This document shows, one piece after another, positions 3,509 to 10,228 of a stretch of DNA of 37,215 nt (position 1 is the first letter of the stretch; every line of letters starts with the position of its first letter). This DNA is from Pseudomonadota bacterium. Lineage in GTDB: Bacteria; Pseudomonadota; Gammaproteobacteria; Burkholderiales; Burkholderiaceae_C. The notes below the pieces were generated by a model, which saw only the letters and a list, made by a program, of their open reading frames with translations, did no database searches and was not told where the DNA came from. The DNA lies in the NCBI GenBank assembly GCA_030538605.1, contig JAUNTQ010000026.1:1-37215 (forward strand), given 5' to 3'. Position numbers and translations under genes: made by a program.

Positions 3509-6500
3509 ATGCAACTGGCTGAAGTTTCCATTCGCCGCCCGGTGTTTGCCACTGTGCTGTCGCTGCTCATCGTGCTGGTGGGGCTGGTGAGTTATCAGCG
3601 TTTGCAGGTGCGCGAATACCCGCGCATCGACGAGCCGGTGGTCACCGTCAGCGTGCGCTATGCGGGGGCTTCTGCCGAGGTGATCGAGTCGCAGGTCACC
3701 AAGCCGCTGGAAGACTCCATCGCGGGCATCGATGCAGTGGATGTGCTGACCTCCATCAGCCGCCCCGAGCAGGCGCAGATCAGCGTGCGCTTTCGGCTGG
3801 AGAAAGACGCCGACACCGCCGCTGCCGAGGTGCGCGACCGTGTCTCGCGCGTGCGCAACCGGCTGCCGCAGCAGATCGACGAGCCGGTGATCGCCAAGGT
3901 CGAGGCCGATGCGTTTCCGGTGATGTGGCTGTCGTATTCCAGCGAGACGCGCTCGCGCCTGGAGATCAACGACCTCATCAACCGCATCGCCCGCCCGCGC
4001 CTGCAAACCGTCACCGGCGTGGCCGATGTGCGCGTGTATGGCGAGCGGCGCTACGCCATGCGCGTGTGGGTCGATGCCGACCGTCTGGCCGCCTACGGGC
4101 TGACCACGCAGGACGTGGAAGACGCCATCCGTCGCAACAACCTCGAAGTGCCCGCCGGGCGTATCGAATCGGCGCAGCGCGAGTTCAGCGTCACCTCGCA
4201 GACCGACCTGAACACGCCCGCGCAGTTTGGTGCCATCGTCATTCGCCAGGCGGGTGGCACGCCTGTGCGCCTGCGCGACGTGGCGCGGGTGGAAGAGGGC
4301 GTGGCCGACGAGCGCAGCGCCGTGCGGCTGAATGGCCGCCCGGCCGTGTCCACCGGCGTCATCCGCCAGGCCACGGCCAATCCGCTGGAGCTGTCGCGCG
4401 GCGTGCGCGCCATGCTGCCCAGCTTGCAGGCCGATCTGCCGCCCGACGTGCGCATCGACATCGCCAACGACAACTCGGTCTTCATCGACCGCGCCGTGAA
4501 AAGCGTTTACGTCACCATTGCCGAGGCGGTGCTGCTGGTGGCGCTGGTGGTGTTCGTGTTTCTGCGCACGGTGCGCGCGTCCATCATTCCCATCGTCACC
4601 ATTCCCGTCAGTTTGATCGGCGCGTTTGCGCTGATGGCGCTGGCGGGGTTTTCGATCAACACGCTCACGCTGCTGGCGCTGGTGCTGGCCATTGGCCTGG
4701 TGGTGGACGACGCCATCGTCATGCTGGAGAACATCCACCGCCACATCGAGGAAGGCATGGAGCCGTTCGCCGCTGCCATCACCGGCGCGCGCGAAATCGG
4801 CTTTGCCATCGTCGCCATGACGCTCACGCTCGTGGCCGTGTATGCGCCGCTGGCCTTCACCCCCGGGCGCACGGGGCGGCTGTTCATCGAGTTTGCGCTG
4901 GCGCTGGCAGGCGCGGTGCTGGTGTCGGGCTTTGTCGCGCTCACCCTCTCGCCCATGATGTGCAGCAAGCTGCTGCGCCACAACCCCGCGCCCAGCCGCT
5001 TCGACCGCTTCATGGAGCGGCGCCTGCGCGCGCTTGAATCGGGCTATGGCCGCGCGCTGCAAGCCGTGCTGCTGCGCGCCAAATGGGCCGTGCTGCTGGT
5101 GATGGCCGCGTGTGCCGTGGGCATTGCCTGGCTCTATCCGCAAATGCGGCAAGAGCTTTCGCCGCTGGAAGACCGCGGCGTGGTGCTGGCCAACATCAAC
5201 GCGCCCGACGGCGCCACGCTGGACTACACCGACCGCTACGCGCGCGAGATAGAGGCCATCGGCCAGAGCTACCCCGAGTTCGACCGCATCTTCGCCAACA
5301 TCGGCAACCCCACCGTCTCGCAAGGCAGCGTGGTGCTGCGCGCCGTGGACTGGAGCGAGCGCGAGCGCAGCACCTTGCAGATCGCGCGCGATCTGCAACC
5401 GCGCTTCAACCAGCTGGCGGGCGTGAGCGCCTTTCCCATCACCCCGCCCTCGCTCGGGCAGGGCTTTCGCGAGCGGCCCGTCAACTTTGTCGTGCAAACC
5501 TCGGGCAGCTACGCGCACCTGAACGACGTCATGGCCGCGCTGCTGCGCGAAGTGGCGGCCAACCCCGGCTTTCAGGCACCCGACGTCGATCTGCGCCTGT
5601 CGCGGCCCGAGCTGCGCATCGAAGTTGACCGCGAGCGCGCCGCCGACCAGGGCGTGAGCGTGGACGCCGTGGCCCGTGCCATCGAAACCATGCTGGGCGG
5701 CCGACAAGTCACCCGCTACAAGCGCGACGCCGAGCAATACGACGTCATCGTGCAAACCACCGCCAGCGGGCGCGGCACGCCGCAGGACATCGACCGCATC
5801 CAGGTGCGCGCCAACCGCGACGGACGCACCGTCATGGTGCCGCTGTCAGCGCTCGTGCGCGTGCAAGAGGGCGTGTCCCCGCGCGAGCTAAATCACTTCG
5901 GCCAGCGCCGCTCGGCCACCCTCACCGCCAACCTCGCGCCCGACTACTCGCTGGGCGAAGCCCTCGGCTTTCTCGACACCGCCGCCAGCCGCCATCTGCA
6001 ACCCGGTGACACGACCGAGCTGAACGGCATCTCGCGCGAATTCCGCGCCAGCCAGGGTGCGCTGGCCATCGTCTTCGTGCTTGCGCTGCTGTTCATCTAC
6101 CTGGTGCTGGCCGCGCAGTTCGAGAGCTTTGTCGATCCGCTCATCATCCTGTTCTCGGTGCCGCTGTCCATGATCGGCGCGCTGCTGGCGCTGCAACTGA
6201 CGGGCGGCTCCATCAACGTGTATTCGCAGATCGGCCTCATCACCCTGATCGGCCTGGTCACCAAACACGGCATCCTCATCGTCGAATTCACCAACCAGCT
6301 GCGCCAGCGCGGCCAGCCCATGCTGCAAGCCCTCATCAACGCCAGCAGTCAACGCCTGCGCCCCATCCTCATGACCACCGGCGCGATGGTGCTGGGCGCA
6401 GTGCCCCTGGCTCTGGCCAGCGGCGCGGGCGCCGAAAGCCGCCAGCAAATCGGCTGGGTCATCGTCGGCGGCATGAGCCTGGGCACACTGCTGACGGTCT

Positions 6501-6604
6501 TTGTGGTGCCCACCATGTACGCGCTGCTGGCGCGCAAGGGGGTGCCGGGGGCGATTACGGTGGCTGTCGGCGCGTCGCACGCCGAACCGGCGCACGACAG
6601 CTGA
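3509..6604 (+). CDS. RND-family multidrug efflux pump, inner-membrane permease (AcrB/HAE1-type)
   Basis: 1031 residues, the normal length for an RND pump. It starts with MQLAEVSIRRPVFATVLSLL, the classical amphipathic helix plus TM1, then a large periplasmic porter domain. TM4 carries the proton-relay pair D400-D401 in GLVVDDAIVMLENI. A second periplasmic domain and the TM7-12 bundle follow (LALLFIYLVLAAQFESFVDP, VTKHGILIVEFTNQ, TTGAMVLGAVPLAL). Such pumps export hydrophobic drugs or solvents by proton antiport with an adaptor and a TolC-like channel. The adaptor is at 1843-3072; the channel must be elsewhere. Repeats separate the two genes, so the pump may have its own promoter. Substrate is not inferable. 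Confidence 0.95.
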   Translation: MQLAEVSIRRPVFATVLSLLIVLVGLVSYQRLQVREYPRIDEPVVTVSVRYAGASAEVIESQVTKPLEDSIAGIDAVDVLTSISRPEQAQISVRFRLEKDADTAAAEVRDRVSRVRNRLPQQIDEPVIAKVEADAFPVMWLSYSSETRSRLEINDLINRIARPRLQTVTGVADVRVYGERRYAMRVWVDADRLAAYGLTTQDVEDAIRRNNLEVPAGRIESAQREFSVTSQTDLNTPAQFGAIVIRQAGGTPVRLRDVARVEEGVADERSAVRLNGRPAVSTGVIRQATANPLELSRGVRAMLPSLQADLPPDVRIDIANDNSVFIDRAVKSVYVTIAEAVLLVALVVFVFLRTVRASIIPIVTIPVSLIGAFALMALAGFSINTLTLLALVLAIGLVVDDAIVMLENIHRHIEEGMEPFAAAITGAREIGFAIVAMTLTLVAVYAPLAFTPGRTGRLFIEFALALAGAVLVSGFVALTLSPMMCSKLLRHNPAPSRFDRFMERRLRALESGYGRALQAVLLRAKWAVLLVMAACAVGIAWLYPQMRQELSPLEDRGVVLANINAPDGATLDYTDRYAREIEAIGQSYPEFDRIFANIGNPTVSQGSVVLRAVDWSERERSTLQIARDLQPRFNQLAGVSAFPITPPSLGQGFRERPVNFVVQTSGSYAHLNDVMAALLREVAANPGFQAPDVDLRLSRPELRIEVDRERAADQGVSVDAVARAIETMLGGRQVTRYKRDAEQYDVIVQTTASGRGTPQDIDRIQVRANRDGRTVMVPLSALVRVQEGVSPRELNHFGQRRSATLTANLAPDYSLGEALGFLDTAASRHLQPGDTTELNGISREFRASQGALAIVFVLALLFIYLVLAAQFESFVDPLIILFSVPLSMIGALLALQLTGGSINVYSQIGLITLIGLVTKHGILIVEFTNQLRQRGQPMLQALINASSQRLRPILMTTGAMVLGAVPLALASGAGAESRQQIGWVIVGGMSLGTLLTVFVVPTMYALLARKGVPGAITVAVGASHAEPAHDS

Positions 6605-6641
6605 ACCGGGTAGACCGCAAGCGCGTCGGTCAATTCTGCGT

Positions 6642-6670
6642 TTGCTGACGGCAAGATGGCGTGTTAAATT
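6642..6670 (+). promoter_or_regulatory. Candidate sigma-70 promoter of the AAA15/RloB-like module
   Basis: TTGCTG (6642-6647) and TAAATT (6665-6670) are 17 bp apart, and the -10 is preceded by TGT, giving an extended -10. The start codon follows 28 bp later. The local sequence turns AT-rich against a GC-rich background. This supports the two genes being their own transcription unit rather than a tail of the efflux operon. Confidence 0.5.
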
Positions 6671-6673
6671 CAA

Positions 6674-6696
6674 TTTCAAACAAAAATTTGTTGAAA
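6674..6696 (+). promoter_or_regulatory. Dyad just upstream of the ATPase start
   Basis: TTTCAA (6674-6679) with TTGAAA (6691-6696) and inner CAAA (6681-6684) with TTTG (6687-6690) form a 10-bp dyad with one bulged A and a 2-nt loop. It ends 2 bp before the ATG, where a ribosome-binding site would lie, and no clear GGAG is seen. It could be an operator or an RNA hairpin limiting translation. Confidence 0.4.
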
Positions 6697-6698
6697 TC

Positions 6699-7895
6699 AT
6701 GAATTTCATGCTGCATCGTTTTGCTTTTTCCAACTTCCAGTCCTTCCGCGAGCGCACCGAGGTCAACTGGCTGCTGGACGGCAAAGTGCCCGAGGCCGTG
6801 TGGTCGGTGACGGGCAGCGCTGGCATGCGCGCCAGCACCGTGATGGCGGTCATCGGCCCCAACGCCAGTGGCAAGACCGGCGTGTTGAGTGCGCTCGTCT
6901 TCGTCCTGTCGTTCGCTTTTCATTCGTTTGCGGCCGACCCGCAGGCGAAGATCGCGTTCTCGCCGTATGCCCTGTTCGAGGGCGAGCCATCCGAGTTCGA
7001 GATCGAATTTGAATGGGACGGCAAGCTGTGGCGCTACGTGCTTCGCTGCACGCGCGAGCGGGTGCTTCATGAGGCGCTTTACGTCAAGCGTCAGCGCATG
7101 GGCTACGTCTTTCTGCGCGACTGGGCGGCAGGCGAGTTGCGGTACGAGGTCAAGCGCCAGCCGGAGTTTGATCTGCCCATCGCTGAGGCAGCCAAGGCGC
7201 GCGCCAATGCATCGTTGATTTCAACGGGCGCGCAATATGGTGTGTCGCTTGCACAGCGAATGGTGCAGGCCAACGTGAGCACGAACCTGGATTTCCGGGG
7301 GCGCATCGGAACGGGTCCAGGTCCTCAACTTGGCGCAGCGCACTACTTTGCCCACCACCCCGATCAGCTTCAGCAGGCCATTCGCTTGATGCGGACGTGG
7401 GATTTCGGCCTCCACGCCATCGAGTTGCGGGCGCAGGAGCTTGCGCTTGAAAACGGCAAGACCGAGAGAGTGTGGATCCCTTTCGGCATCCACCGAGACC
7501 GGCGGGGCAAGCCGTTCGAGCTGCCGTTGCAGCGTGAATCCAGTGGCACGCAAAGCGTGTTCGTGCTGCTGCGCGGGCTGCTTGATGTGCTTGAGTCGGG
7601 CGGCCTGGCCATCGTCGACGAGTTCGAGAACGACTTGCACCCCCACATGCTGGAGCCGATCCTGAGCTTGTTCGCCGACAAGGCCACGAACCCGCACGGC
7701 GCGCAACTGCTTTTTACCTGCCACGCCATGGAAGTGCTGAACATCCTGCACAAATCGCAGGTGATGCTGGTCGAGAAGGACGAAGGCAGCGAAAGCACCG
7801 CCTGGCGGCTGGACAGCGTGGAGGGCATTCGCAGTGACGACAACTTCTACGCCAAGTACATGGCCGGCGCTTACGGCGCCGTGCCCCAGCTATGA
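6699..7895 (+). CDS. AAA15/OLD-type (RloA-like) ATPase of a putative two-gene defence module
   Basis: 398 residues from ATG 6699; an ATG three codons later is the alternative. The opening FAFSNFQSFRERTEVN is typical of ABC-class ATPases that begin F/N-F-x-S/C-F. Walker A is GPNASGKT (53-60), the signature region is SSGTQSVFVL, Walker B is LAIVDEFENDLHPHM (D307, E308) and the switch His is in LFTCHAMEV (H342). All catalytic parts seem intact. There is no TOPRIM domain in this chain; the next gene, overlapping by 4 bp (ATGA), supplies one. The pairing resembles RloA-RloB and, more loosely, PARIS (AriA-AriB), systems known for anti-phage or toxic nuclease activity. A defence role is inference from architecture. 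Confidence 0.85.
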   Translation: MNFMLHRFAFSNFQSFRERTEVNWLLDGKVPEAVWSVTGSAGMRASTVMAVIGPNASGKTGVLSALVFVLSFAFHSFAADPQAKIAFSPYALFEGEPSEFEIEFEWDGKLWRYVLRCTRERVLHEALYVKRQRMGYVFLRDWAAGELRYEVKRQPEFDLPIAEAAKARANASLISTGAQYGVSLAQRMVQANVSTNLDFRGRIGTGPGPQLGAAHYFAHHPDQLQQAIRLMRTWDFGLHAIELRAQELALENGKTERVWIPFGIHRDRRGKPFELPLQRESSGTQSVFVLLRGLLDVLESGGLAIVDEFENDLHPHMLEPILSLFADKATNPHGAQLLFTCHAMEVLNILHKSQVMLVEKDEGSESTAWRLDSVEGIRSDDNFYAKYMAGAYGAVPQL

Positions 7896-8419
7896 GCGGC
7901 CGCAGCCGCGCTGCCCAGCGCACCCAACTCGCCACCGTGCTGCTGGTGGGCGAGGGGCATGCCGAGGTGGCGCTGCTGCATCACCTGAAAACGCTTTACG
8001 CGCCGCGTGGCTGCGGGCTGGCCGTGACCATCAAGAACGCGCATGGCAAAGGTGCCAGCCACGTGGTGGATTACGCCATTCGCCAGGCGCGCAATGCGGC
8101 GTTCGACCACAAGCTGGCCTTGCTCGACGCAGACACCGACTGGTCTGCAAAGGTGCAAACGCAAGCCAGCCAAGGCGGCATTCACGTCGTCGCGTGTGAG
8201 CCCTGTCTGGAGGCGCTGCTGCTGTCCGTGCACGGGGCGTTGCGAGCGGGGCGCTCGCCTGCGCAACTCAAGCGCGATTTTCTTGCGCGCTTCGGGGTGC
8301 AAGCGCATGAGCGCGATCTCTACGCTGCGCAATTTCCGCGCGAGAGGCTTGAGCTGGCCCGGCACACGGTGGGCGGGCTCGATCAGCTGCTCAAGGCGTT
8401 TTCGACGCCAATGCGCTGA
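7892..8419 (+). CDS. RloB-like TOPRIM-type protein, partner of the AAA15 ATPase
   Basis: 175 residues; ATG 7892 overlaps the ATPase stop as ATGA, so translation is probably coupled. The TOPRIM-like marks are the acidic loop LLVGEGHAEVALLHHL (E21, E25) and the DxD strand LALLDADTDW (D79, D81). The segment ACEPCLEALLLSVHG (101-115) fits the RloB pattern S-x-P-C-F-E-x-W-L-L-L-H, although Trp is replaced by Ala. TOPRIM folds bind Mg and cut or rejoin nucleic acid, so this would be the effector of the pair. It is about the length of RloB (~200) and shorter than AriB of PARIS (~300). Distant similarity; the exact family needs a profile search. Confidence 0.7.
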   Translation: MSGRSRAAQRTQLATVLLVGEGHAEVALLHHLKTLYAPRGCGLAVTIKNAHGKGASHVVDYAIRQARNAAFDHKLALLDADTDWSAKVQTQASQGGIHVVACEPCLEALLLSVHGALRAGRSPAQLKRDFLARFGVQAHERDLYAAQFPRERLELARHTVGGLDQLLKAFSTPMR

Positions 8420-8446
8420 TGACCCGCGCCGCAGGGCCGCACGGCC

Positions 8447-10228
8447 TTACTCCCCATACCGCTGCATCACATACGCCCCCGGCGCAGCCCCCAGCGAGCG
8501 GCTGGCGGGGATGGGCTTGGCCTTGACGGGGTCGGACGAGTGTTCGGCCAGCCAGTGTTGCCAGGCGGGCCACCATGAGCTTTCGTATTGGGGGGCGGTT
8601 TGCAGCCATTCGCTGGCGCTGAGCCAGGGGGCGCGGTCGGGGCGCACGGCCAGGCGGTAGTGGCGGCGGGGGTGGCCGGGTTTGGAGATGATGCCGGCGT
8701 TGTGGCCGCCGCTGGTGAGCACGAAGGTGATTTCCGCGTCGGTGAGCCGGTGCAGCTTGTAGACGGAGCGCCAGGGCGAGACGTGGTCGCGTTCGGTGCC
8801 GACGGCGAAGATGGGCAGGCGCAGGTCGTTCAGCGACACGGGCCGGCCGCCGACGCGGTAGCGGCCGTTGGCGAGGGCGTTTTGCAGATAGAGCGCGACC
8901 AGGTATTCGTGGTGCATGCGCGCGGGCAGGCGGGTGGTGTCGGCGTTCCAGGCCATGAGGTCGTTGCCTTGCTCGCGCTCGCCCATGAGGTATTCGCGCA
9001 TCTGGCGCGTCCACACCAGGTCGCGCGAGTGCAGGAACTGAAAGCTGCCCGCCATTTGCTTGCCGCTCAAAAAGCCCTGACCGCGCGTGATGTGGCCGAG
9101 CAGGTTGACCTGGCCTTCGTCGATGAACAGGCCCAGCTCGCCCGGCTCGGAAAAGTCCACCTGCGCGGCCAGCAGGGTGAGGGTTTTGAGACTGGGCAGG
9201 CCCGCCTCGCCGGGCACGCCTTCGGTGCGCGACATGGCGGCGGCGGCGATGGCCAGCAGGGTGCCGCCCAGGCAGTAGCCCATCGCATGCACGCTGTCTG
9301 TGCGGGCGTCGTCGGCGGCACCGCGCAGGGCGGCCAGCACGCCCTGGTGCAGGTAGTCGTCCAGGCGCAGGTCGCGGTCTTGCTCGTCGGGGTTGCGCCA
9401 GGAGAGCATGTACACGGTGTGGCCCTGGCTGACGAGGTAGCGCACCATGGAGTTCTCGGGCGACAGGTCGAGGATGTAGTACTTCATGATCCACGAGGGC
9501 ACGATGAGCACCGGCTCGGGGTGCACGGTGTCGGTCTGCGGGGCGTAGCGGATCAGCTCGATCAGGCTGTTGCGCATGACCACTTCGCCGGGTGTGGCGG
9601 CCACGTTGCCACCGACGACGAAGCGCGCGGCGTTGGCCTCGTCTTCTGCCGTGGGCACGCCGGTCATGTCGGACACCCAGTTGGCCGCGCCTTGCAGCAG
9701 GCGGCGTCCGCCGGTTTGCAGGGTCTCTTGCAGCACCACGGGGTTGGTGAGCAGGCCGTTGGCGGGGGTGAGCATGCCCAGGTACTGGCGCGCGAAGAAG
9801 TCGATCATCTGCGTGTGGTGGCCGCTCACGCCAGGCACCTGGGCGGCTTCGCGCCAGAAGGTTTCGGCGTTGCGAAAGCCCGCGCGCCACTGGCTGAAGG
9901 GCCAGCGCGCCCATTCCTCGGCGCGAAAGCGGGGGTCGTCGTCTTGCGTGCCGGTGCCGTGGGTGGTGGCGTCCTGCATGCTGAGGGTGTCGCGCGCCAG
10001 TTGCGTGGCCAGCGCGGCCAGCTCCATCTGGCGGCCGGGCGAGGCGGCCAGGTGCCAGGCCCAGTCGGCCACGGCCAGGCCCAGGGCGATGGGCGAGAGG
10101 TTGCCCGCCAGCGGCGCGGCGGCGGTCTGCACCAGGCGGTCGAGCTTCTGGGTGGGCGTTTCCTCGGACAGGGGCAGGGCGTCAGGGCGCTGGGCGGTCT
10201 GGGCGATGGAGGGGTTGTGTCGGTCCAT
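8447..10228 (-). CDS. phaC: Class I-like polyhydroxyalkanoate synthase (PHA/PHB polymerase)
   Basis: 593 residues from ATG 10228, chosen because CCCCGGAGCCCGT precedes it; the open frame runs further only as antisense of the neighbour. The lipase-like box is MGYCLGGT with nucleophile C319. The other triad members fit as D481 in VGTERDHVSP and H509 in SGGHNAGII. The N-terminal PhaC domain includes WLIP-like VLIVPSWIMKYYILDL and the tail has WLAEHSS. The enzyme polymerises 3-hydroxyacyl-CoA on the granule surface. Length fits class I (about 590), which needs no PhaE partner. phaA, phaB and phasin genes are not adjacent. It is divergent from the PaaK-like gene, with an FNR-like box 122 bp upstream. 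Confidence 0.92.
   Translation of the reverse strand: MDRHNPSIAQTAQRPDALPLSEETPTQKLDRLVQTAAAPLAGNLSPIALGLAVADWAWHLAASPGRQMELAALATQLARDTLSMQDATTHGTGTQDDDPRFRAEEWARWPFSQWRAGFRNAETFWREAAQVPGVSGHHTQMIDFFARQYLGMLTPANGLLTNPVVLQETLQTGGRRLLQGAANWVSDMTGVPTAEDEANAARFVVGGNVAATPGEVVMRNSLIELIRYAPQTDTVHPEPVLIVPSWIMKYYILDLSPENSMVRYLVSQGHTVYMLSWRNPDEQDRDLRLDDYLHQGVLAALRGAADDARTDSVHAMGYCLGGTLLAIAAAAMSRTEGVPGEAGLPSLKTLTLLAAQVDFSEPGELGLFIDEGQVNLLGHITRGQGFLSGKQMAGSFQFLHSRDLVWTRQMREYLMGEREQGNDLMAWNADTTRLPARMHHEYLVALYLQNALANGRYRVGGRPVSLNDLRLPIFAVGTERDHVSPWRSVYKLHRLTDAEITFVLTSGGHNAGIISKPGHPRRHYRLAVRPDRAPWLSASEWLQTAPQYESSWWPAWQHWLAEHSSDPVKAKPIPASRSLGAAPGAYVMQRYGE

Follow-up and report, generated by a model that had tools for sequence, protein, structure and literature searches.

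What do two overlapping genes, the first for an ATPase and the second for a small Toprim protein, do in the bacterium that carries them, and by what means might their expression be controlled? In the window (i.e., the whole 37,215-nt stretch of DNA analyzed), ORF1 (6699..7895, + strand) encodes an AbiLi-like ABC-type ATPase (AAA_21) of 398 residues when read from the ATG at 6699, and ORF2 (7892..8419, + strand) an AbiLii/RloB-like compact Toprim protein of 175 aa. Since ORF1 relatives begin at M4 (MLHRYAF...), the ATG at 6708, which gives a protein of 395 aa, is the likelier start. The two genes share a stop/start ATGA overlap (7892..7895, + strand), as noticed in a first-pass annotation of this DNA, and the same overlap recurs at several relatives' ORF1/ORF2 junctions.

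Profile searches, which had been proposed in that annotation, matched ORF1 to the PADLOC model of AbiLi (PDLC02335, E 3.5e-72, 241 bits) and ORF2, the next gene on the same strand, to AbiLii (PDLC02338, E 6.9e-14, spanning residues 47–168 of 175). ORF1 also matched Pfam AAA_21 (5.4e-27) and, in PADLOC, AriA (1.7e-31), the latter being outscored by AbiLi. For ORF2, the Pfam RloB score (PF13707, 20.9 bits) was under the gathering cut-off of 31.5, a GajA model in PADLOC matched weakly (1.1e-5), and neither Pfam nor PADLOC yielded a match to AriB/DUF4435 at E ≤ 1. Across 28 aligned partners, the AbiLii model matched all 28 at E ≤ 0.001 and Pfam RloB 22 at E ≤ 0.01.

The ATPase carries the motifs named in the first-pass annotation, namely a Walker A (GPNASGKT, 6855–6878, residues G53, N55, G58, and K59), a Walker B (D307/E308 in AIVDEFE, 7617–7622), and a histidine after Walker B (H342, 7722–7724), all on the + strand. 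Residues G53, N55, G58, K59, D307, and H342 are invariant in 27 aligned ATPases, window included. The AlphaFold2 model of ORF1 (pLDDT 89.6) has PtuA and Rad50 as its nearest structures (E about 1e-12).

For ORF2, the AlphaFold2 model (pLDDT 91.6, pTM 0.86) confidently predicts a Toprim topology with a complete active site. The available text of PMC6755086 defines the Toprim fold by three motifs, E, G, and DxD, and these are placed accordingly in the predicted order of four strand-helix units: E21 (7952–7954) just after strand 1, G52 (8045–8047) after strand 2, and D79 and D81 of the DxD (8126–8128 and 8132–8134) at the end of strand 3, all on the + strand. The same text gives E400, E404, D455, D457, E508, and K562 as the metal ligands and lysine of the Burkholderia OLD protein, a set which ORF2 reproduces in order and type (sequence order, not superposed coordinates) with E21, E25 (7964–7966), D79, D81, E107 (8210–8212), and K127 (8270–8272), again on the + strand. 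E21, G52, D79, D81, E107, and K127 are invariant in 28/28 aligned partners, window included, and at position 25 all but one of the 28 have an acidic residue (E or D). One exception among the 17 genome members, L023 (genome G030), lacks E21 and D81; its locus (L147) also carries CBASS cyclase, HORMA, and TRIP13 genes.

Structure comparisons of the ORF2 model returned an RloB-like protein as best match among predicted viral structures (E 1.7e-6, TM 0.70). Against the PDB, the Toprim region of OLD appeared at ranks 2, 4, 6, 10, and 20 with weak E-values (0.006–0.016), no fold match was below E 0.001, and sequence searches of the PDB with ORF2 provided no convincing relative. The first-pass annotation had left room for a second protein folding without a Toprim core, and the predicted topology speaks against this. 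Its placement of an alanine at the usual RloB tryptophan position was off by one: as read by eye in longer partners, this tryptophan aligns with L109, not A108, and since W109 occurs in 3 of the 17 genome members, residue 109 represents ordinary variation. The N-terminal tail (before T15) is net positive in 27/28 ORF2 members, which would fit nucleic-acid binding.

The distribution of the pair is patchy. Among 299 genomes of the family, ORF2 was found in 17 and ORF1 in 18 (E ≤ 1e-30), and ORF1 was detected in 2/29 genomes of the genus, 4/369 of the class sample, and 9/398 of the phylum sample. Every ORF2 copy in the family adjoins ORF1 (17/17 genomes), and the two genes are therefore paired more than expected by chance. 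The seven genome-contig loci are all paired, the partner frame being cut in three. On viral contigs, 35 loci carry the ATPase, three of which end too early to read the partner; in the 32 readable ones, an RloB-like frame comes next in 29 (one cut short) and another frame in three. These viral-contig partners were read by eye, and 23 of the 29 RloB-like frames entered the alignment. The prospect, raised in the first-pass annotation, that the two genes might rarely occur together is thus contradicted by all three collections. The pair is also carried by a Stenotrophomonas phage, by a Vibrio plasmid, where it sits beside filamentous-phage-type genes, and by a 5.3-kb Photobacterium plasmid, and in all three the second gene is annotated as an RloB domain-containing protein.

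In the window, ORF1 is preceded by a gene (3509–6604) which we take, by eye, to be an RND-type efflux pump, and ORF2 is faced by an opposite-strand gene ending at 8447 which, by eye, is presumably a polyhydroxyalkanoate synthase. Three congeneric genomes (G299, G015, and G313) have the same two neighbors around 1.5–1.8 kb of other DNA, with no pair, and the site is therefore variable. The interval between the pump-like and synthase-like genes (6605–8446 in the window) thus contains different cargo in other genomes of the genus, as seen at loci L118, L119, and L120.

The gene-neighborhood survey suggested in the first-pass annotation was conducted at 12 of the 17 paired genomes (those with long contigs), with 112 flank proteins scanned by PADLOC at 1e-20 and 134 control proteins taken ~137–200 kb away on the same contigs. 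Flank proteins matched 93 PADLOC families, and the 25 listed include type I, IIG, and III restriction as well as CBASS; control proteins matched 28 families, and the 25 listed include RtcR, reverse-transcriptase, mad3, and DpdF models and no restriction or CBASS gene. Direct scans located restriction or CBASS systems beside the pair in 4/12 loci (L138, L146, L147, and L148), and in L146 the pair sits between HsdS-like (specificity) and HsdR-like (restriction) genes of a type I restriction-modification (R-M) locus. The flanks of the window, inspected by eye, look ordinary and show no restriction or CBASS neighbors. In six loci (L003, L007, L008, L019, L024, and L043), the partner frame is broken by frame changes or stops and the ATPase frame is open, which may reflect either assembly errors or the loss of a costly effector.

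ATPases at 24–38% identity are paired with other partners. In L042 (1001–1501, − strand) and L075 (1149–1643, + strand), the Toprim protein is replaced by a partner of 164–166 aa with no Pfam match, 46% identical between the two loci and, for L075, with no PADLOC match, which is possibly an RNase-type toxin. By eye, L176 and L177 have similar frames after the ATPase. In L077, a DUF3990 protein (3884–4066, + strand, 2.6e-14) comes after an ATPase relative at 24% identity, a possible further exchange, and in L178–L180 the ATPase is accompanied by longer RloB-like partners (frames of 214–293 aa as read by eye). The available portion of PMC10440598 describes partner exchange of this kind at a single AAA node, one of the partners being a toxin of mRNA-interferase fold. 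Loci with the short partner differ from those with longer RloB-like or unrelated partners, in agreement with the divergent subtype proposed in the first-pass annotation.

Taken together, we infer an anti-phage function, and the pair is probably a compact AbiL-like guarded Toprim defense unit with RNA a likelier target than DNA. The roles of the ATPase as sensor and guard and of the Toprim protein as effector are assigned by analogy with PARIS, in which an AriA hexamer holds AriB and frees it on a phage trigger, upon which AriB cuts tRNA (PMC12409363, available text). The ATPase would oligomerize like PtuA and AriA, act as phage sensor, and keep the small Toprim protein inactive; upon infection, it would free or activate this partner, which would use two metal ions to cut nucleic acid (host RNA, e.g., tRNA, being the likeliest target), and growth would stop before the phage multiplies. 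Meanwhile, the operon would be kept low by a protein bound to a mirror-symmetric operator over the promoter. The ATPase does not inhibit its partner in every case, however, since in the accessible text of PMC3985639 the AbiLii of F. nucleatum was toxic in E. coli and was not neutralized by its AbiLi, and the AbiLii of L. lactis was not toxic in E. coli. For a TOPRIM:AAA pair of C. algidicarnis (RloB-like node D44, AAA node D29), by contrast, the toxin–antitoxin relation was validated by toxicity-neutralization assays in E. coli, according to the part of PMC10440598 available.

Alternatively, the Toprim partner may cut invading (or all) DNA, making the pair a restriction-like or DNA-damaging unit, which we consider rather unlikely. 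This reading is consistent with the active-site set shared with OLD, a DNA cutter (OLD and Gabija both cut DNA in the descriptions available), with the weak GajA match of ORF2, and with the position of the L146 relative between HsdS-like and HsdR-like genes; however, the acidic residues of RNase M5 form a similar set, as far as the available descriptions go, and the stand-alone Toprim partner of PARIS, AriB, is a tRNase (PMC12409363, available text). Finally, a housekeeping or repair pair, i.e., a RecF/Rad50-type ATPase with a Toprim helper, would fit the Rad50-like fold of ORF1 and the ordinary look (by eye) of the window neighbors but is very improbable given the patchy occurrence (17/299 for ORF2, 2/29 of the genus for ORF1), the carriage by phage, plasmids, and viral contigs, and the swapping of the partner in relatives.

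How expression might be controlled is suggested by the 94 bases between the pump-like gene and ORF1 (6605–6698), whose GC content is 0.447 vs 0.670 for the window. The first-pass annotation had read an AT-rich promoter here; the AT-rich gap stands, but a sigma-70 consensus scan of 6605–6698 detected no promoter at its threshold, and a weak candidate consists of a −35 TTGCTG (6642–6647), a 17-nt spacer, and a −10 TAAATT (6665–6670) (6642..6670, + strand, 7/12 matches). Over this region lies a dyad (6661..6710, no strand assigned) with the core ACA-N6-TGT at 6680–6691, inner arms at 6673–6679 and 6691–6697, and outer arms at 6655–6672 and 6700–6717, the left arm carrying an extra A. On its own, the window palindrome is unremarkable (p about 0.39, ungapped, 60 shuffles).

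Across loci, the core (ACA-N6-TGT with at most one mismatch and an AT-rich middle, ≤70 nt from the start) was found in 38 of 57 different ATPase upstreams, compared to 7/681 control genes and 4/154 AT-matched controls; 20 loci with no core by this rule or too short an upstream are outside the 38. These 38 anchored copies were picked by core only, not by arms, and the 31 that are <70% alike align gap-free over 50 columns. Inner arms pair in 116/186 cells vs 83 ± 6 when partners are shuffled (0/2000 as high), and outer arms, 10–17 nt out, in 124/248 cells vs 86 ± 8 (0/1000), an excess which kinship can contribute to; in a sliding control that retains the relatedness, the pairing of both arms drops, with the outer arms still at a z of 2.3 (vs 4.8) when slid by one column. 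An independent counter estimated covariation at 0.332 vs 0.195 ± 0.018 (0/500), slid versions ranging from 0.13 to 0.22. Since arm pairing and covariation both exceed the shuffles, symmetry is kept while the letters of the arms change. Mutual information over all column pairs did not place a mirrored pair first, and the second-best pair (−13/25) is one column off the mirror.

Inner pairing reaches 60% in the seven control core hits, a level equal to that of the ATPase set. Of these hits, three are the pair's own dyads reached via a divergent neighbor (L143 and L004, which coincide, and L147), another two correspond to a single L152 site approached from either side, and three independent places remain. 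Loci L045–L049 have the dyad core twice, the second copy being 61 bp farther upstream and about 91 nt ahead of the ATPase start.

It is the extended dyad, not the short core, that is specific. A covariance model of the dyad (R1), run with Infernal's stricter filters on the 299 genomes, gave nine matches at E ≤ 0.05, each immediately upstream of the ATPase; these nine (9/17 paired genomes) are all training members, and this search therefore evaluates specificity only. On 660 kb of loci from 56 sources, 84 of 85 R1 matches (E up to 10) were ≤110 nt upstream of the ATPase, in 44 sources, and the remaining one (E 5.4) was 200 nt upstream in L147. R1 identified 4/7 held-out compact pairs (L006, L030, L174, and L175), and 0/6 held-out loci whose ATPase has another partner; where the partner is a longer RloB-like protein (three loci, 214–293 aa), R1 finds nothing. 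The own genome (92% complete) includes one dyad copy within three mismatches.

Three other accounts of the element were rejected. The short core is not a specific marker by itself, as TTCAACAAANNTTTGTTGAA, searched for without mismatches in viral contigs, occurred at six places, five with no adjoining ATPase and one upstream of an ATPase on a contig already in the set. A host regulon site does not agree with the single copy in the own genome, and a mobile-element end repeat was discarded as the exact core was found ≤150 nt downstream of ORF2 in 0/18 loci.

What, then, would bind or form this dyad? We favor a DNA operator over an RNA hairpin, as there is no clear preference for wobble, a consensus RNA structure is not obtained, and the −10 sits inside the left arm in 10 of 17 copies with a scored promoter. 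Whose operator it is can be viewed in several ways. It may be read by a host or phage regulator rather than by the pair's own proteins, a possibility of real weight even if we do not expect it to hold: Pfam provides no DNA-binding regulator domain in ORF1 or ORF2, and the arms vary between hosts, yet neither the one own-genome copy nor the R1 search of 299 genomes, in which every match at E ≤ 0.05 belonged to the pair, resembles a regulon.

More tentatively, and in our view improbably, the ATPase–Toprim complex itself may read the palindrome, recognizing mirror-symmetric AT-rich DNA around ACA-N6-TGT, and repress (or nick) its own promoter there, phage take-over then removing or titrating the complex. 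If so, a single DNA-reading act would couple self-control to phage sensing, and the changing arms would be a record of specificity evolving with the proteins.

An RNA hairpin in the 5′ leader, serving translation control or as an antitoxin-like RNA, is doubtful. The covariation of the arms and the extra A in the left arm of the window would suit it, as would a single-strand fold of 6640–6725 matched by 4/200 shuffles. Mismatch counts are divided, with G-T 19 vs A-C 16 over 12 arm positions in 24 copies picked for good arms but 7 vs 14 when the inner arms are counted in the 31 copies anchored by core alone, so that wobble cannot be said to be clearly preferred. RNAalifold yields no consensus structure, and Rfam 0 matches. 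A −35/−10 pair scoring ≥8 is present in 17/31 dyad copies, and in 10 of these 17 the −10 falls within the left arm, at −8/−9 or −14/−15 relative to the core, so that this arm would be untranscribed. The literature searched contained no account of an operator for AbiL and no description of this element, and the promoter dyad of compact AbiL-like pairs is, to that extent, new here.

AbiL-type pairs pose three questions, namely the target of the Toprim protein, the trigger of the ATPase, and the silencing of the operon. To these, this clade brings an effector of 175 residues whose predicted active site is complete, partners that have been exchanged in nature next to one type of ATPase, and a defined site at the promoter, through which autoregulation could be tested directly.

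AbiL (AbiLi/AbiLii) is an abortive-infection system of Lactococcus plasmids. Judged by profile matches, it is the nearest named system, rather than PARIS or RloAB: the order is the same, an ATPase followed by an RloB/Toprim protein, and among PADLOC models those of AbiL score highest for ORF1 and ORF2 alike. The pair analyzed here differs in occurring in Betaproteobacteria, phages, and plasmids, and in its promoter dyad, none having been found described for AbiL; the likeness is one to profile models, not to Lactococcus sequences, and the Lactococcus prototype was absent among the plasmid records listed (40 of 99). RloA-RloB, linked to type I R-M, likewise combines an ATPase with an RloB-like protein, and the L146 relative is inside a type I R-M locus, but ORF2 falls short of the Pfam RloB cut-off and the loci with longer partners have no detected dyad. 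PARIS (AriA/AriB) shares the ABC ATPase, reflected in the AriA match of ORF1, and the stand-alone Toprim nuclease, whereas AbiLi outscores AriA and ORF2 has no AriB match in PADLOC. OLD, GajA of Gabija, and PtuA of Septu and retrons belong to the same ATPase superfamily as ORF1, and ORF2 carries OLD-type Toprim active-site residues; according to the available descriptions, however, the nuclease is fused to the ATPase in OLD and GajA, unlike the two separate, overlapping genes here, and the nuclease partner of PtuA is the HNH protein PtuB. The AAA-neutralized toxin pairs in the accessible text of PMC10440598 include a clostridial one in which the RloB-like node D44 is joined to AAA node D29, a likeness to the window pair that is one of description only.
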